Part shown: positions 248 to 59,648 of the stretch, one piece after another
Position numbering within the stretch: position 1 is the stretch's first letter
How the letters are laid out: every line of letters begins with the position of its first letter
DNA from: Amaricoccus solimangrovi
Lineage (GTDB): Bacteria > Pseudomonadota > Alphaproteobacteria > Rhodobacterales > Rhodobacteraceae
Length of the DNA: 64,000 bases
NCBI RefSeq assembly: GCF_006385685.1
Contig: NZ_VFRP01000018.1
Coordinates: 1-64,000, forward strand
Direction of reading: 5' to 3'
The notes under the pieces: generated by a model
Seen by the model: the letters and a program-made list of their open reading frames with translations, nothing else
The model's database searches: none
What the model was told of the DNA's origin: nothing
Program-made: the position numbers and the translations under genes

Positions 248-258
248 ACCCTTCACGG

Positions 259-891: not shown

Positions 892-919
892 GGTCGAAGG
901 TGAGGGGTGATCTCCCGCT
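892..919. repeat. 28-bp dispersed repeat, copy A
   Basis: GGTCGAAGGTGAGGGGT followed by GATCTCCCGCT. A near-identical copy sits at 1580-1608. Each can fold weakly through the GGGG/CCC arms. The copies flank a poorly coding stretch of the phage-like region. Confidence 0.5.
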
Positions 920-925
920 TGGCAT

Positions 926-1678: not shown

Positions 1679-2068
1679 TCAGTCCGTGCGGGGCTCTTGC
1701 GGGTATGTCAAGGGATATTGTGAGCAGGTGGCGAAGTTTCTTGGGGCGCGGAGGCGGCCACACACGGGCATCTCGGGGGTGTCGAGGGGTGGGACGGCGG
1801 AGAGGGAAGACGGGCCTGTACGGGGCGCGTTGAGGGGTACTTGTGGTTGGCCTTGGGGTGAGGCACAAGATGTAGAACCGGAAGTTATCCGGGGTAAACC
1901 GGGAGGGGGCGCGAGTGGAGGAACCTGCTTCCTTTGCACGGTCCACTCCTCACTAGGCGAGGGGTAGATGGAGAGGGGTATGTGTATTCCCAATACACCC
2001 CCTGAGGTCTCCCCCGAGGTGGTGCGGAGGTGCTCCCGGAGGTCAGCATGCATTTCGTGCATGATCAT
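1679..2068 (-). CDS. Hypothetical protein next to BRO-N gene
   Basis: A possible 129-residue protein beginning MIMHEMHADLREHLRTT. Its ATG overlaps the frame-corrected stop of the BRO-N gene as ATGA, the usual sign of translational coupling, which is the main reason to list it. The N-terminal 40 residues look protein-like; the rest is Pro/Arg/Ser-rich and could be non-coding. I recognise no domain. It could be a small phage gene or a chance reading frame. Confidence 0.3.
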   Translation of the reverse strand: MIMHEMHADLREHLRTTSGETSGGVLGIHIPLSIYPSPSEEWTVQRKQVPPLAPPPGLPRITSGSTSCASPQGQPQVPLNAPRTGPSSLSAVPPLDTPEMPVCGRLRAPRNFATCSQYPLTYPQEPRTD

Positions 2069-2596
2069 GTCCCACAGTTCACCTGTTGGTCAGCCTGGAG
2101 AATGCCCCGGAGGGCGGCCAGCTCCTCCTCCAGGCGCGTCACCTTGGCGGCGCGCATCTCCGCGATCTTGGCCTCCCCCGCAGGGGAATGCGCTTCGCGC
2201 CAGCTCCTCGATCGTGGCCTCGCCGGTCAGGACCTTCTCCTCCCCGAGGACGTATCCGCCGTCCTTGCGGATGGCCGGGAGGACGGTGCCCGTCACCCAT
2301 TGCTTGAACACCCGCGCCTCCGCCTTACGCGACGAGAGCACTAGGTCGTAGAGGCCGCTCTCGTTGACGGCTACCTTCGAGCGCCCGCCGCCCGGCGCCA
2401 CGGGGAACAGGGTGAGGTCCCTCTCTCCATGGTTTGAATTTAGGGAGAGGATGCGTGTGTCGTTTTTATTGAGCCTTTTCAGGTGGATGGACGCCCCGTG
2501 CGAAATGTCCAGGCCCAGCGCGCGGCACACGTCAACACCCACGAACCACGGCTCCCCGTCGATCTCCACGACGCGGATGTTGTGGCCCTCGAACAT
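2065..2596 (-). pseudogene. BRO-N antirepressor with apparent frameshift
   Basis: Residues 1-100 are a clear BRO-N domain (GEPWFVGVDVCRALGL; then VNESGLYDLVLSSRKAEA and FKQWVTGTVLPAIRKDGGY), as in prophage antirepressors. After residue about 135 the frame runs into a Gly/Arg-rich tail. Removing one base from the run of five C at 2175-2179 (+ strand) restores a charged, coiled-coil-like end (EAKIAEMRAAKVTRLEEELA) that stops at 2065. This is either a genuine inactivating insertion, a sequencing error in a homopolymer, or frameshifting. The TAA in frame upstream and the lack of a ribosome site before ATG 2596 leave the true start open. The role would be antagonism of a phage repressor. Confidence 0.7.
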
Positions 2597-2908
2597 GTGG
2601 ACCGAGGCGCCGCCCTGGCCGAGGATGTTCGAGATGCCCGTGAGAGTTTAACATGCTGTCAGCGAGAGCGCGGTATGGTTAACATGGGCCAGCGGGGGTA
2701 AGAGCTACGTCGGCCTTGGAGCGGGGCGTAAGTCCGCCACCATGCTGCTCACTGTGGGAAGTCGAGCCTGAGGCATGGTGGCGGCAGCGTCAAGAATGTC
2801 CCGAAGGTGTCTTCACGGGCGCTGGGGGTTTTCTGGAGGGGGGCCACCCTCCCCCAAACGCCACAGATCAACAAACACACATGTTGCCAATATGCAACAC
2901 TGTGATCA

Positions 2909-3484
2909 TCAAGACACAGCCTTCAGCTTCGCCACCGTGGCCCTCGCCACCCCAAGCTCCCCGGCAACCGCCTTCACACTCAGGCCGCTCGCCAGCATCC
3001 CCCTAGCAAGCTCCTTCCGGTCCTCGCTCAGGGCTTCGGGGCGTCCACCCTTCTTCCCCTCCGAACGAGCCCGGGCAAGTCCCGCGTGGGTCCGCTCTAT
3101 CAGAAGGTCACGCTCCATCGTGGCGACTGCGGCCAGCATCGTCACCATGAGCTTGCCCGCCGTGCTTGTCAGGTCGAGGTCCCCAAGCTGAAGGACCACC
3201 ACGCCGCATCCCATCTTCCCGAGGATGTCGAGGGTCCCGAGGATGTCGGAGGTGTTCCTCCCGAGGCGATCAAGCTTCGTCACCACGAGCCTACGCGGGC
3301 CGCTCACGGCCTTCAGCGCCGCCAGGGTATCCCGGAAGGCTGGCCGTTCCATGGCCGCTACGGAGCCGCTGACGGTCTCTGTGAAGGTCATGTTGGGGAC
3401 GATGCCCTTGGCCTCGATCTCCCGGAGCTGGTTCTCGGTGGTCTGGTCTGCGGTGGAGACGCGGGCGTAAACGGCGGTGATCAT
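2909..3484 (-). CDS. Serine recombinase (resolvase/invertase family)
   Basis: A 191-residue small serine recombinase. The start at ATG 3484 gives MITAVYARVSTADQT, with the nucleophilic serine in YARVS; a longer reading from 3520 is less likely. The catalytic core includes VTKLDRLGRN (the conserved Asp-Arg-Leu-x-Arg), the E-helix segment GKLMVTMLAAVATMERDLL, and IERTHAGLARARSEGKKGGR linking to a C-terminal helix-turn-helix (ELARGMLASGLSVKAVAGEL). Length and order match Tn3 resolvases and DNA invertases. It probably catalysed resolution or inversion of the element at 1-3900. No crossover (res) site was recognised nearby. Confidence 0.9.
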   Translation of the reverse strand: MITAVYARVSTADQTTENQLREIEAKGIVPNMTFTETVSGSVAAMERPAFRDTLAALKAVSGPRRLVVTKLDRLGRNTSDILGTLDILGKMGCGVVVLQLGDLDLTSTAGKLMVTMLAAVATMERDLLIERTHAGLARARSEGKKGGRPEALSEDRKELARGMLASGLSVKAVAGELGVARATVAKLKAVS

Positions 3485-4119
3485 GGCAGGCTCCGGGGTG
3501 TCAGTTGTCCAGGCCATCAATCATGTGGCAACAACCATGTCAAGCTGGTGTTGACGTCATATCTGAAGATGACATATGGAGGTGTCACTAAACGATCGTT
3601 TGATGGCAGGCTTGAAAGCGGGCGTGGGTGTTCCTATGTCCATCCATGGGGGACGCGATTCGCGTCAGCGTTGTGTTATAGGACAAAATACAATGCCTCT
3701 CCCTCCTGGGGGCTTGGTCACCTGTGTCGAGGTGGCAGCCAACGCCAGCGCAATTGTTCTGAACCTGCTGTTGATCTACCACTACCTTCAAAAGCCCCCT
3801 GACTGACGGGGGGCACGGGGGGTACGCGCGTGCTGCTATATTAATCTCAGGGCCTCAGATTTTTCCCCAGATTATTCGAGGCCCCCAAGGTGGACCACAA
3901 CGGCTTGCCTCGTGGGTGCGAAATCGTTATAAATCAACCAGTAACAGCCCCATCCGGCCGTCTTCAATCCTCTCTCGCAGCACCATCCTCCCCCCGATTT
4001 CATGGTATGCACGCTCTCCAGCGTCCCGCGGCCTCGGCTTTCCCTGTCCGTCCCCGGACGGACGAAGGCCCGGCGGGAGTGTCCCGCCGTGCCTCGTTCC
4101 GTCGGCGCCGGTTCGCGGG
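3485..4119. other. Junction between phage-like region and oxalate operon
   Basis: Apart from the weak small reading frame at 3693-3806 I see no gene. An inverted repeat GGGCCTC (3850-3856) / GAGGCCC (3878-3884) encloses an A/T-rich 21-base loop. Base composition changes to the strongly GC-rich chromosomal type near 4000, so an element boundary may lie about here. No tRNA end or att duplication was found. Confidence 0.3.
3693..3806 (+). CDS. Possible small membrane protein
   Basis: An ATG at 3693 preceded by AGGACA reads 37 residues, MPLPPGGLVTCVEVAANASA, then IVLNLLLIYHYLQKPPD, with one hydrophobic segment able to cross a membrane. An upstream in-frame ATG at 3576 would give 76 residues. It could be a small phage membrane peptide, or chance. 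There is no homology that I recognise. Confidence 0.2.
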   Translation: MPLPPGGLVTCVEVAANASAIVLNLLLIYHYLQKPPD

Positions 4120-46541: not shown

Positions 46542-47684
46542 ATGAGCAAGATCGAGCGGATCGAGACCACCGTTCTCGACATACCGACGATCCGCGGGCA
46601 CGTGCTCTCGATGACGACGATGACGGCGCAGTCGATCGTGCTCGTCCGGATCCGTTTCTCGGACGGCTCGGTCGGGCTGGGCGAGGGCACGTCGATCGGC
46701 GGCATGAGCTACGGGCCCGAGAGCCCCGAGAGCATCAAGGTCGCGATCGACGCCTATATCGCTCCACTGCTGGAGGGCCGCGACGGAAACGACGTGAACG
46801 GCGCGGTCGCGCTGGTCGAGAAGGCGGTGCGCGGCAATCCGATCGCGCGCTGCGCGGTCGAGATCGCGCTCTGGGACGGGCTCGGAAAGCGGCTCGGCGT
46901 CCCCGTCTCCCAGCTTTTCGGCGGCGCGGTCCGCCGCGCGATGCCGGTCGCCTGGACGCTCGCGAGCGGGCATTCCGAGACCGACATCGCCGAGGCGGAG
47001 AAGATGCTCGCGACGCGCCGGCACAACATCTTCAAGCTCAAGATCGGGAAGCGCCGCGTGCGCGAGGATCTCGCCCATGTCGCGGCGATCGCCGACGCCG
47101 TCGGGGACCGCGCGAGCATCCGCGTCGACGTCAACCAGGCCTGGAGCCTGACCGAGGCGCGCCAGGGCCTCGCGGGCCTCGCCGCGATCGGCGTCGATCT
47201 CGCGGAGCAGCCGATCCGGACCGGCTCGCTCGCCGCGCTCCGCGCGCTGACCGAGCGGACCGGGGTCGCGATCATGGCGGACGAGCAGCTGAACGGCCCC
47301 GCCGACGCGCTCGCCGTCGCGGCGGAACGCGCGGCCGACGTCTTCGCGGTCAAGATCGGCCAGTCGGGCGGGCTCAAACGCGCCTCCGAGGTGGTCGCGA
47401 TCGGCGAGGCGGCGGGAATCGGCCTCTATGGCGGCACGATGCTCGAGGCCGGCGTCTCGACCGCCGCCGCGCTGCAGCTCTTCGCGACCGTCGCGCATCT
47501 CGACTGGGGCACCGAACTCTTCGGCCCGCTGCTCATGACGGACGAGATCCTGGCCGAGCCGATCATCTATCGCGACTTCTCGGTCCACCTGCCCGAGGGT
47601 CCGGGCATCGGTGTTGAACTCGACGAGGACAAGGTCGCCTTCCACCGCCGCGACCGCGCCCGGACCCTGCAGGCGGTCGTCTAG
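46542..47684 (+). CDS. catB: Muconate cycloisomerase (enolase superfamily)
   Basis: A 380-residue enolase-superfamily enzyme. The N-terminal capping part holds the muconate-type loop [14 protein letters not shown], then the barrel with the catalytic Lys pair in [10 protein letters not shown], metal ligands Asp in VDVNQAWS, Glu in [10 protein letters not shown] and Asp in [10 protein letters not shown], and Lys in [12 protein letters not shown], ending with [15 protein letters not shown]. This set fits cis,cis-muconate cycloisomerase converting muconate to muconolactone. ATG 46542 follows GGGGAAC. It heads the benABCD group (93 bases to benA). No catC follows, which is unusual for a cat operon. 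Confidence 0.9.
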
Positions 47685-47776: not shown

Positions 47777-49165
47777 ATGTTCACCCCCGAGGCACTCGAC
47801 GAGATCGACGCCCGGCTCGACGGCATCGTCGAGGACGATCCCGCGCGGGGCGTCTTCCGCGCCCGCCGCGACATGTTCACCGATCCCGAGCTCTTCGAGC
47901 TCGAGATGAAGCACATCTTCGAAGGGAACTGGATCTATCTCGCCCACGAGAGCCAGATCCCGAACCCGAACGACTATTTCACCACCCAGATGGGCCGGGT
48001 GCCGGTGGTCATCACCCGCGACAGGCAGGGCGCGCTCCACGCGCTCGTCAACGCCTGCTCGCACCGGGGCGCGATGCTCTGCCGCTTCAAGCGCGCGAAC
48101 AAGGCGACCTTCACCTGCCCGTTCCACGGCTGGACCTTCTCGAACACCGGCCGGCTGCTGAAGGTGAAGGACCCGAACGGCGCGGGCTATCCCGAGCAGT
48201 TCAACTGCGAGGGCAGCCACGACCTGACGAAGGTCGCGCGCTTCGAGAGCTACCGGGGCTTCCTCTTCGGCAGCCTCAACGCGGATGTCCCGCCGCTCGG
48301 GGAGTATCTCGGCGAGGCGCGGAAGATGATCGACATGGTGGCCGACCAGTCCGAGGACGGGCTCGAGGTGCTGCGCGGCTCCTCCACCTACGTCTACGAC
48401 GGCAACTGGAAGCTCCAGGCCGAGAACGGCGCCGACGGCTATCACGTCTCGGCGGTGCACTGGAACTACGTCGCCACCACCTCGCGCCGGGGCCAGGAGG
48501 GCAAGGAGGACACGATCAAGGCGAACGACGCTTCGAAATGGGCGAAGCAGAAGGGCGGGTTCTATTCCTTCGAGAACGGGCACCTGCTGCTCTGGACCGT
48601 CTGGGCCGACCCGTCGAACCGCCCGCTCCACCCGCGTCGCGACGAGCTCGTCGAGAAGCACGGCGCGGCGAAGGCCGACTGGATGATCGGCTACCTGCGC
48701 AACCTCTGCCTCTATCCGAACCTGTTCCTGATGGACCAGTTCTCCTCGCAGCTCCGCGTGTTCCGTCCGGTCGCCGTCGACAGGACCGAGGTCACGATCT
48801 ACTGCGTCGCGCCGAAGGGCGAGAGCCGGGAGGCCCGCGCCCGCCGGATCCGTCAGTACGAGGATTTCTTCAACGCCTCCGGCATGGCGACCCCGGACGA
48901 TACGGAGGAATTCCGCGCGACCCAGCGCGGTTATGCCGGAGCCGCGGTCGCGAAGTGGAACGACCTGACCCGCGGCGCCACGCAGTGGATCACCGGGCCG
49001 GACGAGGACGCGAAGGCGATCGGGCTCGAGCCGATCCTCTCGGGCGCGCGGACCGAGGACGAGGGGCTCTTCGTCATCCAGCACAAGCAGTGGCGGGAGC
49101 GGATGCGCGCGGCGGTCGCGGAGGAACGCGCCGCCGTCACTCCCGTCGCCCATGCGGCGGAGTAA
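47777..49165 (+). CDS. benA: Benzoate 1,2-dioxygenase large (alpha) subunit
   Basis: A 462-residue Rieske oxygenase alpha subunit. The Rieske cluster ligands are Cys94 and His96 in [11 protein letters not shown] and Cys114 and His117 in [10 protein letters not shown]. The catalytic iron site is around [16 protein letters not shown] (Asp, His, His). The Ben-type C-terminus follows ([20 protein letters not shown]). ATG 47777 has GGAGGAGG upstream. It adds O2 to benzoate with the beta subunit BenB and reductase BenC, forming the cis-diol. It follows catB by 93 bases and precedes benB by 5. Confidence 0.95.
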
Positions 49166-49170
49166 GCGCG

Positions 49171-49695
49171 ATGAACGCGACGATCGGACTGGAACCCGCC
49201 GCCCGCCGCCTCTCCTTCGAGGCGATCCAGGCCTTCCTCTTCGCCGAGGCCCGCGCGCTCGACGACCGGGAGTTCGACCACTGGCTCACCTTCTACCATG
49301 AGGATTGCGATTTCTGGATGCCGGCCTGGGACGATTTCGACCGGCTGACCGAGGATCCGGAATCCGAGATCTCGCTCATCTACTATCCCGACAAGCAGGG
49401 CATCCGGGACCGGGTGTTCCGGATCAGGACCGACCGCTCCTCGGCGACCAGCCTGCCGGAGCCGCGCACCCAGCACCATATCGCCAATATCGAGGTGCTG
49501 AGCCAGGAGAACGGCGAGATCCGGCTCCGTTTCAACTGGCAGACGCTGAGCTATCGCTACGCGGCGACCGACCAGCACTGGGGCACGTCCTTCTATGTGA
49601 TCGACACGACGGGGGAGACCCCGCTCATCCGGTCGAAGAAGGTCGTGCTGAGGAACGACCACATCCACCACGTCATCGACGTCTACCACATCTGA
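49171..49695 (+). CDS. benB: Benzoate 1,2-dioxygenase small (beta) subunit
   Basis: A 174-residue ring-hydroxylating beta subunit with a typical cone-like fold: FEAIQAFLFAEARALDDREF, then LTFYHEDCDFWMPAWDDFDR, YYPDKQGIRDRVFRIRTDRS and PRTQHHIANIEVLSQENGEI. It stabilises BenA. I place the start at ATG 49171, five bases after the benA stop, because the reading frame extends far upstream in a shadow frame. Length equals BenB of other bacteria, about 165-175 residues. It is followed by benC after 101 bases. Confidence 0.93.
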   Translation: MNATIGLEPAARRLSFEAIQAFLFAEARALDDREFDHWLTFYHEDCDFWMPAWDDFDRLTEDPESEISLIYYPDKQGIRDRVFRIRTDRSSATSLPEPRTQHHIANIEVLSQENGEIRLRFNWQTLSYRYAATDQHWGTSFYVIDTTGETPLIRSKKVVLRNDHIHHVIDVYHI

Positions 49696-49796
49696 CGCGG
49701 CGCGTCCGGACCGGTGGGTGCTTCGCGCCCGCCGATCCCAAAGCGAACCGTGCCAGCCGCCCGGAGACAGGGCGGGCTCCCGGGAGGAACCGAACC

Positions 49797-50816
49797 ATGA
49801 CCTACCAGATCGCACTCAATTTCGAGGACGGCGTGACGCGCATCATCGACTGTGACGAGGACGAACTCGTCATGGACGCCGCCTTCCGCCAGAAGATCAA
49901 TATCCCGATGGACTGCCGCGACGGCGTCTGCGGCACCTGCAAATGCCATTGCGAGAAGGGCGAATACGAGCTCGGCTTCTATCTCGACGAGGCGATGACC
50001 GAGGAGGAGGCGGAGGGGCGCCACATCCTGACCTGCCAGATGACGCCGAAATCCGACTGCGTCGTCGCGGTCCCCGCCTCCTCCGCCGTCTGCAAGACCG
50101 CCGCGGAGGCGGTGAAGGGCGAGGTGATCGCCGTCGACCGGCTCTCCTCCACCGCCTTCGGCCTGCGGGTGCGGCCTGGCAAACCGATCCCGTTCCTGCC
50201 CGGCCAGTATGTCAACATCGGCGTGCCCGGCACCGACCGCCACCGCTCCTATTCCTTTTCCTCCGCGCCCGGCGCGGACGAGGCGAGCTTTCTCATCCGC
50301 GACCTGCCGGGCGGGCTCATGTCCTCCTGGCTCGGCGAGAGGGCGAAGCCTGGCGACGCGCTGGAACTGACCGGGCCGATGGGCGCCTTCTACCTCCGCC
50401 CGATCGAGCGGCCGCAGCTCTGGCTCGCCGGCGGCACCGGGCTCGCGCCGTTCCTCGCGATGCTCGAGCAGGTCGCGGCCGAGGGGACGGAGCATCCGAT
50501 CCGGCTCTTCTACGCCGTGACCCGCGCGGCCGATCTCGTCGAGCTCGACCGGCTCCGGGCGCTCGCGGAGCGGATCGAGGGGCTGACGCTCGTCACCATC
50601 CTCGCCGCCGAGGACGAGACGCACGAGCGCAAGGGCTTCGTGACCGACCATCTGAACCCCGAGGATTTCAACCTCGGCGATGTCGACGTCTATCTCTGCG
50701 GTCCGCCGCCGATGGTCGAGGCGGTGCGCCATCACATGACGGCGCTCGGGGTCACGCCGGCGAGCTTCCATTTCGAGAAGTTCAACCCGACCGAGACGCC
50801 GGCGGTGGCGGCATGA
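49797..50816 (+). CDS. benC: Benzoate 1,2-dioxygenase reductase
   Basis: A 339-residue electron-transfer protein. The N-terminal plant-type 2Fe-2S ferredoxin has Cys40, Cys45 and Cys48 in PMDCRDGVCGTCKCHCEKGE and a fourth Cys in ILTCQMTPKSDC. The FAD domain has DRHRSYSFSSAPG, and the NADH domain GGTGLAPFLAMLEQVAAE with the end LCGPPPMVEAVRHHM. It feeds electrons from NADH to BenA. ATG 49797 is preceded by GGGAGGAA. Its stop overlaps benD (ATGA). Confidence 0.94.
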   Translation: MTYQIALNFEDGVTRIIDCDEDELVMDAAFRQKINIPMDCRDGVCGTCKCHCEKGEYELGFYLDEAMTEEEAEGRHILTCQMTPKSDCVVAVPASSAVCKTAAEAVKGEVIAVDRLSSTAFGLRVRPGKPIPFLPGQYVNIGVPGTDRHRSYSFSSAPGADEASFLIRDLPGGLMSSWLGERAKPGDALELTGPMGAFYLRPIERPQLWLAGGTGLAPFLAMLEQVAAEGTEHPIRLFYAVTRAADLVELDRLRALAERIEGLTLVTILAAEDETHERKGFVTDHLNPEDFNLGDVDVYLCGPPPMVEAVRHHMTALGVTPASFHFEKFNPTETPAVAA

Positions 50817-51631
50817 CCGCCCCGGCCTTCCGGACCGCCGCGGCGGCGCCGGGGCGCTTCGCGGGCAAGGCGCTGGTCGTGACCGGCGCCGCGCAGGGGA
50901 TCGGCCGGCGCGTCGCGGAGCGCGCCGCCGCCGAGGGGGGCGAGGTGCTGATCGTCGACCGCTCGCCCCACCGCGACGAGGTGGTGGCGGCGATCGCGGA
51001 GGCCGGCGGCGTCGCCCATGCCTTCGACGCCGATCTCGAGACCTGGGAGGGCTGCGCCGCGGCGATGGCCCGCGCGGTCGAGCTCCGCGGCCGGATCGAC
51101 GTGCTCGTCAACAATGTCGGCGGCACGATCTGGGCCCAGCCCTACGAACAGTACGAGCCCGCGCAGATCGAGGCGGAGATCCGCCGCTCGCTCTTCCCGA
51201 CGCTGTTCTGCTGCCGCGCCGCGCTCGATCACATGCTGCCGGCGGGGCGCGGGGTGATCGTCAATGTCTCCTCGATCGCGACGCGGAGCCTCCGCCGCGT
51301 GCCCTACGCGGCGGCCAAGGGCGGCGTGAACGCGCTGACCGCCTCGCTCGCCTGGGAGGTGGCCGAACGCGGCATCCGCGTCGTCGCCACCGCGCCGGGC
51401 GGCACCGAGGCGCCGGCGCGCAAGGTTCCGCGCAACCTCGCCCGCGCGCCCTCGCAAGGCACGGACGACAGCACGACCTCGGTGATCGTGAACCAGACCA
51501 TCGGGTCGAGCCTGATGCGCCGCTACGGCACGCTGGACGAACAGGCGGCGCCCATCCTCTTTCTCGCCTCCGACGAGGCGAGCTACATCACCGGCCTCAC
51601 CGTGCCGGTCGGGGGCGGCGATCTCGGGTGA
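50813..51631 (+). CDS. benD: Benzoate diol dehydrogenase (BenD)
   Basis: A 272-residue short-chain dehydrogenase: VVTGAAQGIGRRVAERAAAE (NAD-binding), VLVNNVGGTIWAQPYEQYEP, VNVSSIATRSLRRVPYAAAK (active-site Ser and Tyr-x3-Lys), and SYITGLTVPVGGGDLG at the end. It oxidises the benzoate cis-dihydrodiol to catechol with loss of CO2. It starts at ATG 50813, overlapping the benC stop, so benC and benD are coupled. Only 12 bases separate its stop from the convergent LysR gene. Confidence 0.94.
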   Translation: MTAPAFRTAAAAPGRFAGKALVVTGAAQGIGRRVAERAAAEGGEVLIVDRSPHRDEVVAAIAEAGGVAHAFDADLETWEGCAAAMARAVELRGRIDVLVNNVGGTIWAQPYEQYEPAQIEAEIRRSLFPTLFCCRAALDHMLPAGRGVIVNVSSIATRSLRRVPYAAAKGGVNALTASLAWEVAERGIRVVATAPGGTEAPARKVPRNLARAPSQGTDDSTTSVIVNQTIGSSLMRRYGTLDEQAAPILFLASDEASYITGLTVPVGGGDLG

Positions 51632-51643
51632 GGCGCGCGCGGG

Positions 51644-52540
51644 TCAGCCCTTCCGGGCGAGCCCGCGGGCGACCTCCTGGGCGAGGGTGGCGAACTTGTG
51701 GACATGCACGCCCTGCTCGTCGACGCGCGTGTTGATCGAGACGGCGGTGGTGCCGAGCGGCGGCTCGATCCGGTGGAAGCGGATGCCGTTGCGCGGCGCG
51801 GAACCCACGGATTCCGGCACGACGCAGACGCCCTCTCCGATCGCGACGAGCGAGAGCGCCGTCTGCAGGTCCATCGTGAAGACCCGGTTCGGCACCTCCA
51901 TCCCGAGCGACCGGCACTGTTCGAGCACGAAATCGGCGTAGGAGGGGCGCGGGAATTCCGGGTAGAGGATGAAGTTCTCCGCTCCGAGATCGCGCAGGTC
52001 GACCGGACCCTCGCGGGTGTCGAGCGTGTCGGGCACGGCGACGATGAGCTGCTCGTCGCAGAGCTTGCGCGTCACGAATTCCGGATCCGACAGCGTCGGC
52101 CGCGCGAAGGCGACGTCGATCTCGCGCCGGATCAGCGCGCGGTAGAGGCTCGCGTTGTTCATCGGCATGAGGCTGAGGTTCACACCCGGATAGGCGGCCC
52201 GGAACGCCTTGATGATGTTGGGCAGGATCCCGTAGGAGGAGGAGCCCACGAAGCCGATCCGGAGCCGCCCCTCCGCGCCCTGGCCGAGCCGGCGGATCTC
52301 GAGCTTCATGTCCTCGATGCCGCGCATCAGTTCGCGCCCGCGCTCCTGGAGCCGGGCGCCCGCCTGGGTGAGGGTGATCGCATTGCGGCCGCGGTTGAAC
52401 AGGATCGCGCCGAGTTCCTGCTCGAACTGCTGGATCTGGCGGCTGAGCGGCGGCTGCGCCATGCCGAGCCGCTCAGCCGCCCGGCCGAAATGAAGCTCCT
52501 CGGCGACCGCGAGGAAATAGTCGAGGCGACGGAGGTTCAT
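51644..52540 (-). CDS. LysR family regulator, CatR/BenM-like
   Basis: A 298-residue LysR regulator: MNLRRLDYFLAVAEELHFGR, then the helix-turn-helix AAERLGMAQPPLSRQIQQFE. The effector domain has GFVGSSSYGILPNIIKAFRA and FILYPEFPRPSYADFVLEQC; the last is close to the muconate/benzoate-responsive group. ATG 52540 follows GGTGAG. It converges on benD with only 12 bases between, and is divergent from a second LysR gene. It probably senses muconate or benzoate and acts on ben, cat or both. Confidence 0.85.
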   Translation of the reverse strand: MNLRRLDYFLAVAEELHFGRAAERLGMAQPPLSRQIQQFEQELGAILFNRGRNAITLTQAGARLQERGRELMRGIEDMKLEIRRLGQGAEGRLRIGFVGSSSYGILPNIIKAFRAAYPGVNLSLMPMNNASLYRALIRREIDVAFARPTLSDPEFVTRKLCDEQLIVAVPDTLDTREGPVDLRDLGAENFILYPEFPRPSYADFVLEQCRSLGMEVPNRVFTMDLQTALSLVAIGEGVCVVPESVGSAPRNGIRFHRIEPPLGTTAVSINTRVDEQGVHVHKFATLAQEVARGLARKG

Positions 52541-52856
52541 CGTGGGCTCACCCCGCGTCCGCTTCGTGGCCGCGCTGTCCCGCGCCGTTCTTCTCAGCGC
52601 CGCCGAGAAATGTGTCGGGCGCGAAGGCGCGGGTCTCGCGGCGCGCGCAGCTTCCGCGATCCTCGCCGCGTGCGGAGCGGCGCGTCTCGAGCGGGCGTTC
52701 GGTCGTGTCGGACATGATTTCCTCCCCGGACCCGTCCATGCGATACCTTCGGTATCCGCCTGGCAGGCTTCTCTGCTTGCTTGTCTCCGGTATACTTGCC
52801 TCGCGCCCCGCTTCCCAATACCGTCTCGGTGCCCACGATACCCGGGAGGTATGGCG
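52541..52856. other. Divergent control region of the two LysR genes
   Basis: 316 bases with no gene. It holds the GATACC dyad and the GTATAC box described separately. The stretch 52560-52730 has no recognisable element. Confidence 0.4.
52742..52756. promoter_or_regulatory. LysR-type dyad between the two regulators
   Basis: GATACC-TTC-GGTATC, a perfect 6-bp inverted repeat with a 3-base centre, with a second short palindrome GTATAC at 52790-52795. Related GTAT-N6-ATAC dyads occur before the intradiol dioxygenase (57123, 57171), so one LysR may bind both. Confidence 0.55.
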
Positions 52857-53759
52857 ATGGAGCTGCGGCAGCTCCGTTACTTCGTGGCCGTCGCGCGGGA
52901 GCGGAACTTCACCCGCGCCGCGGAGCGGCTCCACATCGCCCAGCCGCCGCTCAGCCGGCAGATCCAGGCGCTCGAACGGGAGATCGGCGTGCGGCTGATC
53001 GAGCGCGGCGCGCGGCCCGTGCGCCTGACCGAACCGGGCCGGCTCTTCTACGACCAGGCGGTGCAGGCGCTCGAACACGTCGAGGAAATGACCGAGATGA
53101 CCCGGCGGCTGGCCGAGACGGCGCGGACCCGGCTCGGGATCGGCTTCGTTTCCTCGACGCTCTACGGCCATCTGCCCGAGGTGATCCGCCGCTACCGCGC
53201 CGCCCGGCCGGAGGTCGAGATCGCGGTCCACGAAATGACCTCGCTCGAACAGATCGTGGCGCTGAAGGAGGGGCGTATCGACGTCGGCTTCGGCCGCATC
53301 CCGCATGGCGATCCCCAGGTGGCGCGGGTGCTGATGCGCAACGAACCGCTGCGCGCGGCGCTGGCATCGAGCCTCGGTCTGGGGGAGGGACCGTTCCGCC
53401 TCACCGCGCTCGCCGGTCTCCCGATCATCCTCTATCCGAAGGCGCCCCGGCCGAGCTACGCCGATCAGGTGCTGGCGCTCCTGCGCGCGCGCGGCCTGCG
53501 GCCGCCGGTTGTCCACGAGGTGAAGGAACTGCAGACCGCCCTCGGCCTCGTCGCCTCGGAGACGGGCTTCGCGATCGTGCCCGCCTCGGTCGAGCGGCTG
53601 CGGCGCGACAACGTGACCTACGCCGCGCTCGACGAGCCGGAGGCGATCTCGCCCGTCATCATGAGCACGCGCAGGGACGATCCGTCGCCGGAACTGGCGC
53701 TGATCCTGAGGCTCATCAAGCGGATGTACCGCGACCGGGGCATCCCGTTCGGCGTGTGA
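52857..53759 (+). CDS. LysR family regulator, CatM/BenM-type
   Basis: A 300-residue LysR protein: MELRQLRYFVAVARERNFTR, then AAERLHIAQPPLSRQIQALE, nearly identical to the pattern of BenM/CatM. The effector domain has FVSSTLYGHLPEVIRRYRAA and YPKAPRPSYADQVLALLRAR. ATG 52857 has GGGAGG seven bases upstream; an ATG two codons earlier is too near that site. Its best targets are the divergent promoters here and the dyads before the dioxygenase gene. It is divergent from the other LysR gene and convergent with the BenE operon. Confidence 0.88.
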   Translation: MELRQLRYFVAVARERNFTRAAERLHIAQPPLSRQIQALEREIGVRLIERGARPVRLTEPGRLFYDQAVQALEHVEEMTEMTRRLAETARTRLGIGFVSSTLYGHLPEVIRRYRAARPEVEIAVHEMTSLEQIVALKEGRIDVGFGRIPHGDPQVARVLMRNEPLRAALASSLGLGEGPFRLTALAGLPIILYPKAPRPSYADQVLALLRARGLRPPVVHEVKELQTALGLVASETGFAIVPASVERLRRDNVTYAALDEPEAISPVIMSTRRDDPSPELALILRLIKRMYRDRGIPFGV

Positions 53760-53768: not shown

Positions 53769-54962
53769 TCAGGGGCGGAGCCGCCGGACCGCGCGGGTGA
53801 CGAGGACGGCGCCGATCCCGACCACGACGCCCCAGAAGGCCGCGTTGATCCCGTGGATCGTCACCCCCGTCACCGTGACGATGAAGGTGACGAGCCCCGC
53901 CTGCGCGTCCTCGGGCCGCGCCAGCATGTCGCCCATGCTCCGCAGGATCGCCCCGAGCAGGGCGAGGCCCGCGAGCATCGCGATGATCTCGACCGGCAGC
54001 AGCGCGAGCAGCCCCGCGATCGAGCCCGCGAAGATCCCGCCGAGGCAGAAGAACACCCCCGCCGCGACCCCGGCGAGCCAGCGCCGGCCGGGATCGGGAT
54101 GCGCCTCGGGGCCGGCGCAGAGCGCCAGGGTGATCGCCGCGAGCGCGGTGGTGATGCCGCCGAGGAAGGCGGCCGCGACCGAGGCGAGCGCGGTGACGAC
54201 GATGATCGGCCGCGCGGCGACCTCGTAGCCGCTCGCGCGCAGGATCGTCAGCCCCGGCAGGAACTGCCCGGTCAGCGTCGTGAGCACGAGCGGCAGCGCG
54301 AGGCTGAGCGTCGCGCCCAGGCTGAGGCTCGGCCAGGTCAGCCGGGGCGTCGCGAGGGCGAGGCCCGCGGAATCGGGCGCGACGCCGTAGACCTGCCAGG
54401 AGAGCGCGAGGCCGAGCGCCAGCAGCGCCAGCATCGTGTAGCGCGGAATCGCGGCGGAGAGCGCGAAATAGGCGGCGAGAAGCCCCGCCATGACCCAGGG
54501 CGCGGCGGCGATCCCTTCCATCGCGTGGACGCCGAAACCGAAGAGGATCCCGGCCATCATCCCGTCCGCGACCGCGCGCGGGATCGCCGCGACGATCCGG
54601 TCGAAGAGCCCGGTCACCCCGAGCGCGAGGATCACCAGCGCGGCCGTCACGAAGGCGCCCACGACCTCGGCGAAAGGCAGTCCGGAGCCGAGCGAGATCA
54701 GGAGCACGGTTCCCGGCGCGGACCAGGCGGTGGCGACCGGCGCCCGCGTCCAGGCGCTGAGCACGATCGAGGAGATCCCGGCCGCGACCGAGATGGCGAA
54801 GACCCAGGACGAGAACTCCGCCGGGCTCGCCCCCATCGCATGGGCGGCCTGGAGATAGATGAGAAGCGGCCCGGCGTAGGAGACCAGCACGACGAGGAAT
54901 CCCGCCGTGACGATCCCCGCCCAGTGCCCGCGCGCGGATCCGATCGTGTTCGAGACGGCCAT
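53769..54962 (-). CDS. benE: BenE family benzoate transporter
   Basis: A 397-residue membrane protein of the BenE family with about 12 helices. Characteristic stretches are VVLVSYAGPLLIYLQAAHAM, the APGTVLLISLG and AWSAP segment near 85, GFGVHAMEGIAAAPWVMAGL, and VTGVTIHGINAAFWGVVVGI at the end. BenE proteins are proposed benzoate:H+ symporters. The start is ATG 54962 just after GAGGAGG. It is the last gene of the minus-strand group SCP2-like, hydrolase, BKACE, with 16 bases after the BKACE stop. Confidence 0.9.
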   Translation of the reverse strand: MAVSNTIGSARGHWAGIVTAGFLVVLVSYAGPLLIYLQAAHAMGASPAEFSSWVFAISVAAGISSIVLSAWTRAPVATAWSAPGTVLLISLGSGLPFAEVVGAFVTAALVILALGVTGLFDRIVAAIPRAVADGMMAGILFGFGVHAMEGIAAAPWVMAGLLAAYFALSAAIPRYTMLALLALGLALSWQVYGVAPDSAGLALATPRLTWPSLSLGATLSLALPLVLTTLTGQFLPGLTILRASGYEVAARPIIVVTALASVAAAFLGGITTALAAITLALCAGPEAHPDPGRRWLAGVAAGVFFCLGGIFAGSIAGLLALLPVEIIAMLAGLALLGAILRSMGDMLARPEDAQAGLVTFIVTVTGVTIHGINAAFWGVVVGIGAVLVTRAVRRLRP

Positions 54963-54978
54963 CCTCCTCTCCCGAATC

Positions 54979-55815
54979 TCAGGCCACCGCCGGCACGAGG
55001 CCGAGAATCTCCCGCGCCTCGCGCCAGGTGGCGACCGGGCGCCCGTGTTTCTCGCAGAGCCCGACCACGCGTCTGACCAGCGCGGCGTTCGAGGGGGCGA
55101 GGCGGTCGCGGTCGAGCCGGACGTTGTCCTCGAGCCCGGTCCGCGCATGGCCGCCCCCCGCGACGCACCATTCGTTCAGCGTGAACTGGTGCGCCCCGAT
55201 CCCGGCCGCGCACCATTCCGAATCCGGCGCGAGCCGCTCCATCGTCCGGACATAATAGTCGAAGACGTCGCGATCGACGGGCATCGCGTTCCTCACACCC
55301 ATCACGAACTGGACATAAAGCGGCCCCCGGAGACGCCCGTCGCGCCGCATCGCCACCGCCTGGTGGATGTGGCTCAGATCGAAGGCCTCGATCTCCGGCT
55401 TCACGCCGCGGGTCCGCATCTCCGCCGCGAGCCAGTCGACGAGATCGGGCGGGTTCTCGTAGACCCGCGCGGGGAAGTTGTTCGACCCGACGGCGAGGCT
55501 CGCCATGTCGGGGGCGAGGGCCAGCATCGCGCCCCGGCTCCGCCCCGCGCCGGAGCGTCCGCCGGTGGAGAACTGGATGATCATGCCGGGGCAGTGCTTC
55601 TCGATCCCTTCCCTCAGCCGCGCGAATTTCTCCGGATCGGAGCTCGGCGTCTCGTCGTCGTTCCGGACATGGGCGTGGACGATGGTCGCGCCCGCCTCGA
55701 AGGCCTCCTGGGTGCTCTCGATCTGTTCGGAGACGGTGATCGGCACCGCGGGATTGTTCGCCTTCACCGGCAGCGAGCCCGTGATCGCGACGCAGATGAC
55801 GCAGGGTTTCGTCAT
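54979..55815 (-). CDS. BKACE family enzyme (beta-keto acid cleavage, DUF849)
   Basis: A 278-residue protein of the BKACE family, which transfers the acetyl of acetyl-CoA onto a beta-keto acid to give acetoacetate and a CoA ester. Zinc ligands His47 and His49 are in TIVHAHVRNDD and a Glu in GHARTGLEDNVRLD; STGGRSGAGRSR and GSNNFPARVYENPP form the substrate side. ATG 55815 overlaps the upstream stop (ATGA). The family cleaves several keto acids, including 3-oxoadipate, so in this aromatic cluster 3-oxoadipate is a plausible substrate, giving acetoacetate and succinyl-CoA; this is inference. Confidence 0.88.
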   Translation of the reverse strand: MTKPCVICVAITGSLPVKANNPAVPITVSEQIESTQEAFEAGATIVHAHVRNDDETPSSDPEKFARLREGIEKHCPGMIIQFSTGGRSGAGRSRGAMLALAPDMASLAVGSNNFPARVYENPPDLVDWLAAEMRTRGVKPEIEAFDLSHIHQAVAMRRDGRLRGPLYVQFVMGVRNAMPVDRDVFDYYVRTMERLAPDSEWCAAGIGAHQFTLNEWCVAGGGHARTGLEDNVRLDRDRLAPSNAALVRRVVGLCEKHGRPVATWREAREILGLVPAVA

Positions 55816-56672
55816 TTCAGCGCCTCCGCCGGCACGCGCATCCGGGTGAGCGCGTCGAGGAAGAAGGGCCGGAAGCCTTCCGGATGCTCGCTCATCGGGA
55901 AATGCCCGAGTTCCTCCATCACCGCGAGCGTCGCGCCCGGGATGGCCGCGGCGGTCCGCCGCGCATCCTCGGGCGTACAGGTCAGATCATAGGCGCCGAC
56001 GAGGATGTGGACCGGCGCGCGCGCCGTGTCGATCCGGCCGAGCCGCCCGATCAGGCTGTCGTCGCGGGTGTAGAAGGAGAGATCGCCCCGGAAGACGCCG
56101 GGACCGGAGGCCATGAACATCCAGAGCGTGTTCCACCGCTCGGCCTTCGGCGCGTAGGGCGAGATATTGGCCGAGACCAGCGCCGCGCCCATCTCGCCGC
56201 CATGGGCGTCGGGGCGGTGGAACCAGTCGATGTCGTACCAGGCCGGCTGGAAGTCCGAGGCCTCGATCGCGATGAAGCCCGAGAAGACCTCCGGGCGGAG
56301 CGCGGCGAGCTGCAGCGCGATGCGCCCGCCCATCGAGCAGCCGGCGAGGATCGGCCGGTCGAGCCCGAGCGCCTCGACCACGGCGAGCACGGTCGCGACA
56401 TAGGCCTCGGTCGTCAGCAGGTATTCCTCGGTCTCGAACCCCTCGGGCGGCAGCGACTTGCCATGCCAGGGCATGTCGAAGGCGATCAGCCGGTGGTCCT
56501 TCGTCACCTCGGCGTCGTTCATCAGGTGCCGCCACTGCCGCGTGTCGGCCCCGGCGGTGTGCAGGCAGAGGACGGGGCGCCCCGCGCCTGCCTCCTCGAA
56601 ATAGATCCGGCGCGGCGCGCCCTCGACCTCTACGGTGACGTAGCGGCCGGTGATCGGTTCGATGGCGCTCAT
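55812..56672 (-). CDS. Alpha/beta hydrolase, possible enol-lactonase
   Basis: A 286-residue alpha/beta hydrolase: PVLCLHTAGADTRQWRHLMN (oxyanion), the nucleophile elbow AGCSMGGRIALQLAALRP (Ser near 110), Asp in ILVGAYDLTCTPEDA and His in EELGHFPMSEHPEGF. Many such proteins act on lactones or esters; 3-oxoadipate enol-lactonases (PcaD) share this fold. It is coupled to the SCP2-like gene upstream and the BKACE downstream by ATGA overlaps. Its place between catB and the BKACE suggests it opens a lactone to 3-oxoadipate, though an ester substrate is equally possible. Confidence 0.85.
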   Translation of the reverse strand: MSAIEPITGRYVTVEVEGAPRRIYFEEAGAGRPVLCLHTAGADTRQWRHLMNDAEVTKDHRLIAFDMPWHGKSLPPEGFETEEYLLTTEAYVATVLAVVEALGLDRPILAGCSMGGRIALQLAALRPEVFSGFIAIEASDFQPAWYDIDWFHRPDAHGGEMGAALVSANISPYAPKAERWNTLWMFMASGPGVFRGDLSFYTRDDSLIGRLGRIDTARAPVHILVGAYDLTCTPEDARRTAAAIPGATLAVMEELGHFPMSEHPEGFRPFFLDALTRMRVPAEALK

Positions 56673-57043
56673 GCGAAAGCCTCCTCGCGCGGCAGGGCCA
56701 GGAATTCCTTGAAGAAGCGCAGGTTCTTCACGAGCGCGAGGATGTCGCCCTCGATCGTCGCCCGGCCGATGGTGACGAGCCCGAAGACGTCGTGGAAGCC
56801 GGGGCGGGGCCGGGGCTTCCAGAACTCCGCCAGCGCCTCGGCGTCGGTCTTGATCGCGAAACGCCAGGGCGTCTTGCGGCTCGGCCCGGGCAGGATCTCG
56901 GCCAGCCGGCCCTTCTCGAAGACGAGGTAGTATTCCGCCTCGCCAACCTTCAGGAGCACCGTCTCGGAGACGAGCCGGCCGAGACGGAGAAGATGCGGTG
57001 TGGCGTCGAGCCGCGATTGCATTCGCCGCAGAAGTGGCAGCAT
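56669..57043 (-). CDS. SCP2-like sterol-carrier domain protein
   Basis: A 124-residue SCP2-like protein: LGRLVSETVLLKVGEAEYYL, FEKGRLAEILPGPSRKTPWR and GFHDVFGLVTIGRATIEGDI ending LALVKNLRFFKEFLALPREE, the pattern of bacterial SCP-2 sterol-transfer-like domains that bind hydrophobic ligands. There is no catalytic motif. ATG 57043 follows GGGGGAAA. Its stop overlaps the hydrolase start. It may bind a lactone or acyl intermediate of the neighbouring enzymes; the function is unknown. Confidence 0.75.
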   Translation of the reverse strand: MLPLLRRMQSRLDATPHLLRLGRLVSETVLLKVGEAEYYLVFEKGRLAEILPGPSRKTPWRFAIKTDAEALAEFWKPRPRPGFHDVFGLVTIGRATIEGDILALVKNLRFFKEFLALPREEAFA

Positions 57044-57122
57044 GATTTCCCCCGGAAAGAGCTGGTGACGAGATACGCGCCGCAACCTGCGCCCCGTCCC
57101 GGCGCGGGGCAATGGCGCGGAG

Positions 57123-57138
57123 GGTATCCGCCGATACC
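57123..57138. promoter_or_regulatory. LysR-type dyad 1 between the BKACE operon and catA
   Basis: GGTATC-CGCC-GATACC, a perfect 6-bp inverted repeat in the divergent region between the SCP2-like gene and the intradiol dioxygenase. It is a GTAT-N6-ATAC site. Confidence 0.65.
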
Positions 57139-57170
57139 GTCCGGGCCCGGCGGCGCGGTCCCCGGGCGGA

Positions 57171-57184
57171 GTATCGACCGATAC
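57171..57184. promoter_or_regulatory. LysR-type dyad 2 between the BKACE operon and catA
   Basis: GTATCGACCGATAC, a second GTAT-N6-ATAC palindrome centred 47 bp from dyad 1, as expected for tetrameric LysR binding at two sites. Confidence 0.65.
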
Positions 57185-57290
57185 CGAGCCGGGCATTGGT
57201 TCGGACCGGGTGCTTTGCGACAGTTCAGGGGTCAGCCTCCGGCCAGCCCGGTTTCGGACGTAACGCAAGCCAAGAATTGGGGGGAGAATC

Positions 57291-58154
57291 GTGCCCAAGG
57301 TAACGATCGACAACATCACCGACGTCGTGATCGGCTCACTCGGCCAGAACGGCGAGGTCACGCCGCGGCAGCGCGAAATCATGGTCTCGCTGCTCCGGCA
57401 CCTGCACGGCTTCTGCAAGGAAGTGAGGCTCCAGCACCACGAATTCCTCGCCGCCTGCGACTATCTCGCCCGCGCCGGGCGGACCTGCGACGAGAAGCGG
57501 CAGGAGTTCATCCTGCTCGGCGACATCCTCGGCGTCGAGGTGCTCGTCGACATGCTGACGAACCCGGTCACCGGGGCCGAGAGCGAGTCGACCGTGCTCG
57601 GCCCGTTCTACCGCGACAACCCGCCGATCCTGCCCGCAGGCGCCTCCGTCGTTCAGAAGCATTTCGAGGGCGAGGAGACCGTGCTCTTCGAGGGCGTCGT
57701 CACCGACGAGAACGGCGCGCCGCTCGAGGGCGTGATCCTCGACGTCTGGGAGGACGCGCCCAACGGGCTCTACGAGAACCACGATCCCGACCAGCCGGAC
57801 TTCAACCTCCGCGGCCGCTTCCAGACCGACGCCGAGGGCCGCTACGCCTTCCGCGCGCTCCGGCCCGTGCCCTATCCGATCCCGGACAACGAGACGGCGG
57901 GCGAACTGCTGCGCTTCATGGGCCATCACCCGTACCGGCCCGGACACATGCATTTCATGATCCGGAAGCCCGGCTACGGCACGCTCATCAGCCAGATCTT
58001 CGACGCCTCGTCGAAATGGCTCGACAACGACTCGGTCTTCGCGGTGAAGGACAGCCTCGTCGCGGAGTTCCGCCCGACCCCGGACGCCGAGGACGATCTG
58101 CACGTCGGCTTCGACTTCGCGCTGAGGCGCGAGAAGGCGCTCGTCGACGCCTGA
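57291..58154 (+). CDS. catA: Intradiol ring-cleavage dioxygenase (CatA-like)
   Basis: A 287-residue intradiol dioxygenase. The N-terminal helical lid is followed by the catalytic barrel with iron ligands Tyr161 (GLYENHD), Tyr195 (PVPYPIPDN), His219 and His221 (HPYRPGHMHFM). The segments DPDQPDFNLRGRF and GHHPYRPGHMHFMI are closer to the chlorocatechol/hydroxyquinol-type branch than to classical CatA, so the natural substrate may be substituted catechol or hydroxyquinol. The start is GTG 57291 with GGGGGGAG upstream. A strong terminator follows at 58163. It probably cleaves the catechol produced by BenABCD to a cis,cis-muconate. Confidence 0.88.
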   Translation: MPKVTIDNITDVVIGSLGQNGEVTPRQREIMVSLLRHLHGFCKEVRLQHHEFLAACDYLARAGRTCDEKRQEFILLGDILGVEVLVDMLTNPVTGAESESTVLGPFYRDNPPILPAGASVVQKHFEGEETVLFEGVVTDENGAPLEGVILDVWEDAPNGLYENHDPDQPDFNLRGRFQTDAEGRYAFRALRPVPYPIPDNETAGELLRFMGHHPYRPGHMHFMIRKPGYGTLISQIFDASSKWLDNDSVFAVKDSLVAEFRPTPDAEDDLHVGFDFALRREKALVDA

Positions 58155-58301: not shown

Positions 58302-59648
58302 ATGGCCCGTCGCATGCTCGACGCGCAGGAGGTGGTGAACGCGCATCCCCTCTCCGCCTTCCAGAAACGCGTCATCTTCCTTTGCTTCCTCGTCGTCGCG
58401 ATCGACGGGTTCGACACGGCCGCGGTCGGCTTCATCGCCCCCGCGCTCAAGGCCGAATGGGGCGCGACCCCGGCCGAGCTCGCGCCGCTTTTCGCCGCCG
58501 GGCTCTTCGGGCTGATGGCCGGCGCCTTCGTCTTCGGCCCGCTCGCCGACCGGTTCGGGCGCAAGCCGGTCCTGACGCTGACGACGGTCTTCTTCGGCCT
58601 CGCGACGCTGGCCTCGGCCTTCGCGCCGGACATCGGGACGCTGACCGCGCTGCGTTTCGTCACCGGGCTCGGCCTCGGCGGCGCGATGCCCGCCTCGATC
58701 ACGCTCACGGCCGAACTCTGCCCGGAGCGGCGGCGCTCCTCGCTGGTGACGCTGATGTTCTGCGGCTTCACCATCGGCTCGGCCTCGGCGGGGCTGGCCG
58801 CCTCCTCGATCGTCGCGGCCTTCGGCTGGCCGGGGCTCCTCGCGCTCGGCGGCGCGATGCCGCTCCTGCTCGCGCCGGTTCTCGCGCTGTTCCTGCCGGA
58901 ATCGCCGCGCTATCTCGCCAATCGCGGCGCCGATCCGGCGCGGATCTCGGCCGTGCTCTCGCGCATGGCGCCGGAGGCCGATCTCGACGGGGCGAGCTAC
59001 CTGCGCCCGGCCAAGACGCCCGGCTCCCCGGTCGGCCAGCTTTTCAGCGACGGGCTCGGGCTCGGCACTCTGCTGATCTGGACCGGCTTCTTCATGAGCC
59101 TGCTCGTCTTCTACCTGCTGTCGAGCTGGCTGCCGCTGCTGATCACCTCGGCGGGATTCTCGATGGAGAACGCGGCGCTGATGGGGGCCACGCTCGCGAC
59201 CGGCGGCACGGTGGGCGCGATCGTGATCGGCCGGCTCATGGACCGGTTCGAGCCGCACCGCGTCCTCGCCGGCGCCTATCTGCTCGCGGGCGGCTTCGTG
59301 ATCCTGCTCGGGACCTCGGTCGCCCAGCCCTGGCTCTTCGTGCCGGCGATCTTCGGCGCGGGCTTCGGGGTGGCGGGGGCGCAGGTCGGCATCAACGCGC
59401 TCGCCGCCGGCTTCTATCCGACGGCGAGCCGGGCGACCGGCGTCTCCTGGGCCAACGCGGTCGGCCGCTCCGGCTCGGTCCTCGGCTCGACGCTCGGAGG
59501 CGTGCTCATGTCGCTCGGCTGGGATCTCGCGACCGTCTTCGCGGCCGCCGCGCTGCCGGCCTTCCTCGCCGCGCTCGCGATGGTCGCCAAGGGCCGGGCC
59601 GCGCGGCCCGGAACGCCGCCGCCGGCCGCGGCCGCGCCCGCCGACTGA
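58302..59648 (+). CDS. AAHS family aromatic acid:H+ symporter (MFS)
   Basis: A 448-residue MFS transporter of the aromatic acid:H+ symporter (BenK/PcaK) branch with 12 helices. Key features are FLVVAIDGFDTAAVGFIAPA with the Asp pattern DGFD in helix 1, the LADRFGRKPVLTL motif, LCPERRRSSLVTLMFCGFTI, and ATGVSWANAVGRSGSVLGST in the second half. ATG 58302 has GGAGG upstream. It follows catA in the same direction, so benzoate or a related aromatic acid is the likely substrate, alongside BenE. Confidence 0.88.
   Translation: MARRMLDAQEVVNAHPLSAFQKRVIFLCFLVVAIDGFDTAAVGFIAPALKAEWGATPAELAPLFAAGLFGLMAGAFVFGPLADRFGRKPVLTLTTVFFGLATLASAFAPDIGTLTALRFVTGLGLGGAMPASITLTAELCPERRRSSLVTLMFCGFTIGSASAGLAASSIVAAFGWPGLLALGGAMPLLLAPVLALFLPESPRYLANRGADPARISAVLSRMAPEADLDGASYLRPAKTPGSPVGQLFSDGLGLGTLLIWTGFFMSLLVFYLLSSWLPLLITSAGFSMENAALMGATLATGGTVGAIVIGRLMDRFEPHRVLAGAYLLAGGFVILLGTSVAQPWLFVPAIFGAGFGVAGAQVGINALAAGFYPTASRATGVSWANAVGRSGSVLGSTLGGVLMSLGWDLATVFAAAALPAFLAALAMVAKGRAARPGTPPPAAAAPAD

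Follow-up and report, generated by a model that had tools for sequence, protein, structure and literature searches.

An SCP2-fold protein and its partner hydrolase as a candidate for the muconolactone isomerase step in alphaproteobacterial benzoate clusters

The subject here is a benzoate gene cluster in a 64,000-nucleotide stretch of DNA from Amaricoccus solimangrovi (contig NZ_VFRP01000018.1, positions 1 to 64,000, called the window below; it corresponds to C47 among the 135 contigs of a 4.86-Mb genome), and in particular two adjacent genes in it, one for an SCP2-like protein and one for an alpha/beta hydrolase. This pair heads a group of four minus-strand genes that continues with a gene of the BKACE family and ends with that for the benzoate transporter BenE. 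The SCP2-like/hydrolase and hydrolase/BKACE overlaps are 4 bp each (ATGA) and the start of BenE lies 16 bp past BKACE. A catA-like dioxygenase gene is divergent from the SCP2-like gene and adjoins a gene for a major facilitator superfamily (MFS) transporter, and catB and benABCD lie upstream of the four-gene group. BenE, BKACE, the hydrolase, the intradiol dioxygenase, BenD and the muconate cycloisomerase are all confirmed by Pfam or NCBIfam. Profile searches, together with a local hidden Markov model (HMM) of catC, give no match in the window to catC (muconolactone isomerase), pcaIJ or pcaF. The arrangement recurs across dozens of named genera, which is beyond chance. An original prediction, made from the letters of this DNA, had drawn the four genes, the overlaps of the first three, the divergence from catA and the nearby catB-benABCD correctly, with coordinates nearly right, and had also noted that these classical genes are missing from the window.

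The SCP2-like protein and its hydrolase go together as a single unit. All 19 order-level genomes with a close SCP2-like gene have the hydrolase gene after it in the same orientation, and this is also so in all 80 named related loci (the best 80 of 211, so that close relatives are favoured; L193, L201 and L215 come from one assembly, and 31 of the 80 cover less than 19 kb through contig ends) and in 30 of 30 class-level loci, the window included. At 77 of the 80 an in-frame hydrolase start codon and the SCP2 stop share exactly 4 bp, a count of codons present whose use as starts is unproven, and at the other three such a codon is no more than 40 bp from that stop. In L147 (genome G392) and L161 (G601) the two are fused in one frame of 434-437 amino acids. 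Several other class-level SCP2-like matches lie in frames of 410-480 amino acids and may be fused too. Even where three weak SCP2-like matches (20-25% identity) occur in genomes without catB over its cut-off, a hydrolase adjoins. Sequence conservation within the order is higher for the hydrolase (76-88% identity) than for its SCP2-like partner (60-74%).

How the pair is distributed relative to catB and catC was assessed in 292 genomes of the order, catB being called with TIGR02534 and catC with TIGR03221, each at its cut-off. CatB is over the cut-off in 33; a close SCP2-like gene is present in 19, all of them among the 33, and in none of the 259 others (Fisher test, p 2.6e-21, relatedness ignored). 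For catC there are 12 genomes over the cut-off plus G059, just under it at 124.8 bits; ten of these (nine over the cut-off and G059) are among the 33 with catB, and G024, G046 and G212 have catC with no catB over the cut-off. The 33 divide into 19 with the pair only, ten with catC only, four with neither and none with both (p 1.1e-5 for the exclusion, by the same kind of test). The 19 span 17 genera.

The 80 named loci, which share several genomes with the order sample and are not independent of it, include Rhodobacterales, Stappia, Aquamicrobium, Phyllobacterium and Pseudaminobacter. By identity thresholds of 60% for BKACE, 45% for catA and 35% for catB, a catA-like gene is found in 76, BKACE in 52 and catB in 29; LysR1, the regulator typical of these clusters, is in 77, and catC in none within the sequence covered. 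The local catC HMM gave no match in 98 SCP2-type contexts, three plasmid loci and the window; it recovered four of four control loci, its training set having included sequences from three of them. A whole-genome search covered 50 of the genomes behind these loci, a set selected by us and made up largely of cultured isolates; 49 proved to be without catC over the cut-off and 46 without any match to the CatC model. The exception, Rhodobacteraceae DSL-40, has its catC in a second, separate and complete catB-catC-catA-benABCD cluster, and therefore each cluster holds its own set. Also pertinent is Aquamicrobium defluvii, where the pair stands beside catB, catA, benD and pcaIJF, with neither BKACE nor catC in 20 kb; in that partly annotated stretch only the CatC and CatD steps are without another candidate. 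A separate curiosity is L265, a record bearing the name of an actinobacterium, Enemella evansiae, whose SCP2-like protein, hydrolase and BKACE are 69%, 86% and 72% identical to those of the window; it may represent either a recent transfer or a mislabelled or contaminated assembly.

A reported gap gives the pattern a physiological setting. Benzoate can serve Sulfitobacter D7 as its sole carbon source; the strain expresses a plasmid-borne ben cluster, and its authors, in a 2023 paper, identify every gene of the catechol branch except CatC (PMC9873259). A genome of the order sample that is very likely D7 (G194) has no TIGR03221 match. On the plasmid, p5SUD7, the pair lies beside a catA-like dioxygenase gene, benABCD and catB, annotated as 'hypothetical protein' (WP_120352654.1) and 'alpha/beta hydrolase' (WP_120352653.1), the locus tags of the two genes being B5M07_RS19065 and B5M07_RS19070; further along are pcaIJF and a pca operon that includes BKACE as well as canonical PcaD. 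A specific two-gene candidate can now be named for that gap, and the literature searched yielded no paper linking the pair to the missing CatC step.

The SCP2-like protein has no Pfam match up to E 10, none in NCBIfam at E 0.001 and no sequence match in the PDB. An AlphaFold2 model made with the window protein and 53 homologues has a mean predicted local distance difference test score (pLDDT) of 92.6, and its best solved fold match is 2cx7, with a VIA Z of 13.6 and 116 residues aligned at a root-mean-square deviation of 2.6 and 14% identity. On this model the protein has the SCP2 fold, and the label first given to it was right. The fold is held in common with 2cx7, UbiJ and the C-terminal domains of alkylsulfatases (SCP2 domains of the latter being among the fold matches); the window protein differs from these in having no Pfam SCP2 match and in being tied to small-molecule catabolic hydrolases. 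No muconolactone isomerase is among the fold matches listed, which does not itself show a difference. Invariant in the 54 sequences are, among others, R20, Y39, D67, W75, H84, D85, R94, D100, R109, K112 and R119; of the 30 class-level sequences, that of the window among them, 25 retain H84 and 23 retain D85. Conserved polar residues are unusual for a lipid pocket, and these could be catalytic or form the interface with the partner. Compared with CatC (PF02426/TIGR03221), the pair is proposed for the same pathway position, in genomes with catB, catA and benABCD, but the SCP2-fold protein is without a muconolactone isomerase sequence match and is always paired with a hydrolase in the loci examined.

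The hydrolase matches Pfam Abhydrolase_1/6, and with 76.5 bits against a cut-off of 255.85 it falls short of TIGR02427 (PcaD). S113, in a GxSxGG motif, and H257 are invariant in all 22 sequences aligned, and would be the nucleophile and the catalytic histidine, respectively; the structure model has a mean pLDDT of 66.8, too low for a fold comparison. The protein is probably a lactone hydrolase. Its resemblance to PcaD/CatD is that of an alpha/beta hydrolase with weak homology; identity with the canonical PcaD proteins of D7 and the present genome is 24-28%, and it differs from them by its constant SCP2-fold partner.

Given these observations, the pair is proposed, with a probability of roughly 0.58, to perform the CatC step, with or without that of CatD, on the way from muconolactone to 3-oxoadipate. 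BenABCD, the catA-like dioxygenase and CatB would lead to muconolactone; the SCP2-fold protein and the hydrolase, as one two-component enzyme in place of CatC, would take this to 3-oxoadipate, also replacing CatD where no PcaD is induced; and BKACE would move the chain to acetyl-coenzyme A (acetyl-CoA), giving succinyl-CoA and acetoacetate, instead of PcaIJ and PcaF. Two orders of events can be envisaged on chemical grounds, both ending at 3-oxoadipate. The SCP2-fold protein might shift the double bond before the hydrolase opens the enol-lactone, or the hydrolase might open muconolactone to 4-hydroxyhex-2-enedioate, which its partner would isomerise to the ketone by an allylic alcohol-to-ketone shift. 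The CatC step is the one most in need of the pair because a canonical PcaD is available both in D7 and in the present genome. The two matters that the original prediction had left unexplained, the role of the SCP2-like protein and the isomerase gap, probably answer each other. A more specific version, in which the SCP2-fold protein is itself catalytic, either as an isomerase unrelated to CatC or as the isomerising half of a two-component enzyme that releases no enol-lactone, is put forward tentatively, with doubt outweighing belief; if true, the pair would be a widespread and as yet unnamed catabolic lactone module of Alphaproteobacteria and beyond. Textbook though the beta-ketoadipate pathway is, a large group of predicted benzoate users, from sea and soil, is without a recognised muconolactone isomerase. 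Confirmation would assign a function to an SCP2-fold family that has no name as yet, and would close the gap in many alphaproteobacterial pathway reconstructions.

Several considerations weigh against an isomerising pair. Proteins of the SCP2 family typically bind lipids or serve as accessory domains, and none is known to be an isomerase. As D7 and the present genome have a canonical PcaD, CatD need not be replaced. A muconolactone isomerase-family paralogue in the present genome (described below) could isomerise in principle, and in four of the 50 genomes with the pair the CatC model finds a match, which in three is weak (26.9-39.6 bits). Eight of the ten catC genomes in the order sample belong to one genus, a relatedness that the Fisher tests leave out of account; catC and the pair are both lacking in four of the 33 genomes with catB; and G019 has its catB some 2.2 Mb from the pair. 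That catechol is the substrate of the catA-like enzyme is assumed from the neighbouring genes and the growth of D7. The pair also occurs in many non-catechol settings, with no lactone-type neighbour recognised in L117 and Xanthobacter, and in general it may do no more than hydrolyse esters or lactones.

Among the four genomes with neither, G261 (L134) retains benABCD-catB (71-78% identity), with no catA-like, SCP2-like, hydrolase or BKACE gene in its 20-kb stretch and no NF053568 (BKACE) match genome-wide, so that joint loss or an unfinished pathway is possible. G088 and G255 have catA-like and catB genes with a glutathione S-transferase-like gene (identified by eye), and the arrangement in G034 is different. 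G205, a catC genome examined alongside these four, has catC on a different contig from catB, and has a catA at 33% identity. No alternative isomerase was recognised in the neighbourhoods of G261, G088, G255, G034 and G205. The catC clusters of the one genus have the order catB-catC-catA with a classical catA, and pcaIJF is nearby in three of eight (L120-L122). A second kind of CatC, over the cut-off and 60-66% identical to that of L052, is found in L127-L130 (G212, G205, G046, G024), next to a short-chain dehydrogenase-like gene and a LysR gene with no catB beside it; another pathway may use muconolactone isomerase there.

The distribution of the pair outside catechol clusters bears on the strongest of the alternatives. 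At the class level, SCP2-like genes are present in 35 of the 385 genomes scanned, and matches in plasmid records reach Peribacillus and Rhodococcus (27-30% identity). Some distant pairs adjoin a succinate-semialdehyde dehydrogenase gene or a gene of SMP-30/gluconolactonase type, and that of L118 adjoins a metallo-beta-lactamase-fold protein, read by eye as lactonase-like; such neighbours hint at lactone chemistry in general. In 20 class-level loci the neighbours are varied, with few in common (at least three, L169, L171 and L176, are without usable gene calls). Distant or relocated pairs are also seen on plasmids of Xanthobacter dioxanivorans, Peribacillus, Rhodococcus pyridinivorans and Martelella (L276-L279), two of them followed by succinate-semialdehyde dehydrogenase, and a lactone-processing module outside aromatic catabolism is possible in these cases.

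The alternative in question is that the hydrolase is an enol-lactonase (a CatD analogue) and nothing more, the SCP2-like protein being a structural or substrate-presenting subunit, with isomerisation left to an unrecognised enzyme or to a side activity of CatB. It draws on the alkylsulfatase domains among the fold matches, on the non-catechol settings of the distant pairs and on the divergent isomerase paralogue of the present genome, and is judged unlikely: it leaves the mutual exclusion of the pair and catC in catB-positive genomes unexplained, D7 keeps the pair despite its canonical PcaD, and 46 of 50 genomes with the pair are without any match to the CatC model. The SCP2-fold protein may thus be no more than an accessory subunit in such settings.

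The rest of the genome is relevant to how far classical enzymes might contribute. Profile searches there covered catC, pcaIJ, pcaF, PcaD and BKACE, several neighbour names being read by eye from translations, a reading that left out weaker thiolase matches on C53, C71 and C93 and weaker PcaD-like matches; the matches fall in paa, AtoDA/ScoA/FadX-like, carnitine-type and pca contexts. The single gene of the muconolactone isomerase family scores 57.4 bits with Pfam (cut-off 26.7) and 35.6 with TIGR03221 (cut-off 130.6), and sits between a GNAT-like gene and panB (neighbours by eye). No pcaIJ occurs inside a pca or cat cluster. The CoA-transferase matches comprise an AtoDA-like pair on C35, a fused gene of FadX type on C43 and, where C51 ends, a ScoA-like gene accompanied by part of a second subunit. 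The C35 pair and the C51 gene are above the broad pcaI/scoA-family cut-offs of NCBIfam, so that a PcaIJ activity from genes elsewhere is possible. Of two thiolases over the pcaF cut-off, one is in a paa cluster and the other beside FadJ-type genes. A canonical PcaD on C45 (318.6 bits) is in a separate pca operon, and therefore the hydrolase need not be the sole enol-lactonase. The pca operon itself (C45, positions 1-3775; L289) contains pcaD, pcaC, pcaH and pcaG and the start of a BKACE gene at the contig edge, and is divergent from a LysR gene (pcaC and pcaG being assigned by eye from order and sequence); the protocatechuate branch of this organism also seems to use BKACE.

BKACE is above the cut-off of the NCBIfam equivalog "3-oxoadipate:acetyl-CoA acetyltransferase" (NF053568; scores in Table 1), which is exceeded in 208 of the 292 genomes of the order. 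Conversion of 3-oxoadipate and acetyl-CoA to succinyl-CoA and acetoacetate is a well supported prediction from sequence, because of the family, ScoA-like neighbours and published precedent, and here the original prediction holds. A ScoA-like CoA-transferase gene (at least 60% identical to that of the present genome) is in 25 of the 80 related loci and directly follows BKACE in several clusters, which fits a predicted re-activation of acetoacetate. Once acetoacetate is re-activated the net balance is that of the classical route, and therefore the description of the BKACE route as 'shortened' is not quite apt. As a novelty BKACE is ruled out, its action on 3-oxoadipate being no undescribed idea: a named equivalog exists, and for Methylobacterium pca operons that have a DUF849 gene but lack pcaIJF were described in 2022, while a 2025 paper draws the 'KCE' reaction as a single step (PMC8963497, PMC12379598); the family is also treated in PMC6365646, PMC10971088 and PMC4922564. 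In the Methylobacterium operons, as is proposed for the window, BKACE stands in for PcaIJ and PcaF; the window differs by its catechol-branch setting, and otherwise the idea is the same.

In this light the route initially envisaged, a shortened beta-ketoadipate pathway centred on BKACE with the hydrolase as enol-lactonase and the SCP2-like protein incidental, appears improbable as an account of the cluster. Its family assignment is sound, and BKACE is near the pair in 52 of the 80 named loci and, within the order, in 16 of 19 genomes with the pair. However, it is not the constant of the cluster, which is the SCP2-like protein with its hydrolase: the former is never apart from the latter (80/80), no BKACE is seen in 28 of the 80 loci (4 of these being cut off within 2 kb downstream), and at least one cluster (L252) has pcaIJF instead. 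Replacement of PcaIJF by BKACE is, moreover, already in print (PMC8963497, PMC12379598). Two of the eight catC-type clusters of the one genus (L124, L126) have BKACE nearby, and therefore BKACE is not special to the SCP2 type.

The catA-like protein, assigned a CatA role by prediction, finds its closest solved relatives in 6-chlorohydroxyquinol and hydroxyquinol 1,2-dioxygenases (8r2x, E 2e-64; CatA 2azq, E 1e-32). It is under the catechol dioxygenase cut-offs (135 versus 404.4 bits for TIGR02438; 138.5 versus 392 for TIGR02439) and shares 26-34% identity with the catA found in the order's catC-type clusters; by sequence comparison it is not an orthologue of classical CatA. That the cluster bypasses muconolactone, a hydroxyquinol-type dioxygenase providing some other lactone from a hydroxylated ring for the pair to act on, would suit these PDB relatives and a score under every catechol dioxygenase cut-off but is very improbable, with BenD and BenE over cut-off, CatB alongside at 506 bits, no maleylacetate reductase recognised in the open reading frame (ORF) list for 44-64 kb (by eye only), and growth of D7 on benzoate with this gene set (PMC9873259).

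Table 1. Genes of the benzoate cluster, in window coordinates
Feature	Coordinates	Strand	Basis
SCP2-like protein, 124 amino acids	56669-57043	-	ORF, ATG at 57043
Alpha/beta hydrolase, 286 amino acids	55812-56672	-	Pfam Abhydrolase
BKACE	54979-55815	-	NF053568 493.7 bits, cut-off 350
BenE benzoate transporter	about 53769-54962	-	TIGR00843 362.1 bits, cut-off 203.4
catA-like intradiol dioxygenase, predicted CatA role	57291-58154	+	PF00775
CatB muconate cycloisomerase	46542-47684	+	TIGR02534 505.9 bits, cut-off 335
benABCD	47777-51631	+	ORFs, Pfam/NCBIfam and comparison with related loci
benA	47777-49165	+	
benB	49171-49695	+	
benC	49797-50816	+	
benD	about 50816-51631	+	
LysR1, regulator typical of SCP2-type clusters	51644-52540	-	NCBIfam; present in 77/80 loci
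LysR2, second LysR regulator	52851-53759	+	53-58% identity to LysR of catC-type clusters L119-L126
MFS aromatic-acid transporter, PcaK/BenK-like	58302-59648	+	NCBIfam

Two features of the surroundings vary among SCP2-type clusters. In the window, L189 and L191 the second LysR gene and the MFS gene resemble those of catC-type clusters, and the two are not seen together in other named SCP2-type loci; the cluster is possibly a hybrid. In L099, L100 and L274 a branched-chain-type ATP-binding cassette transporter lies between the LysR gene and benD, and is possibly an alternative benzoate uptake system to BenE.

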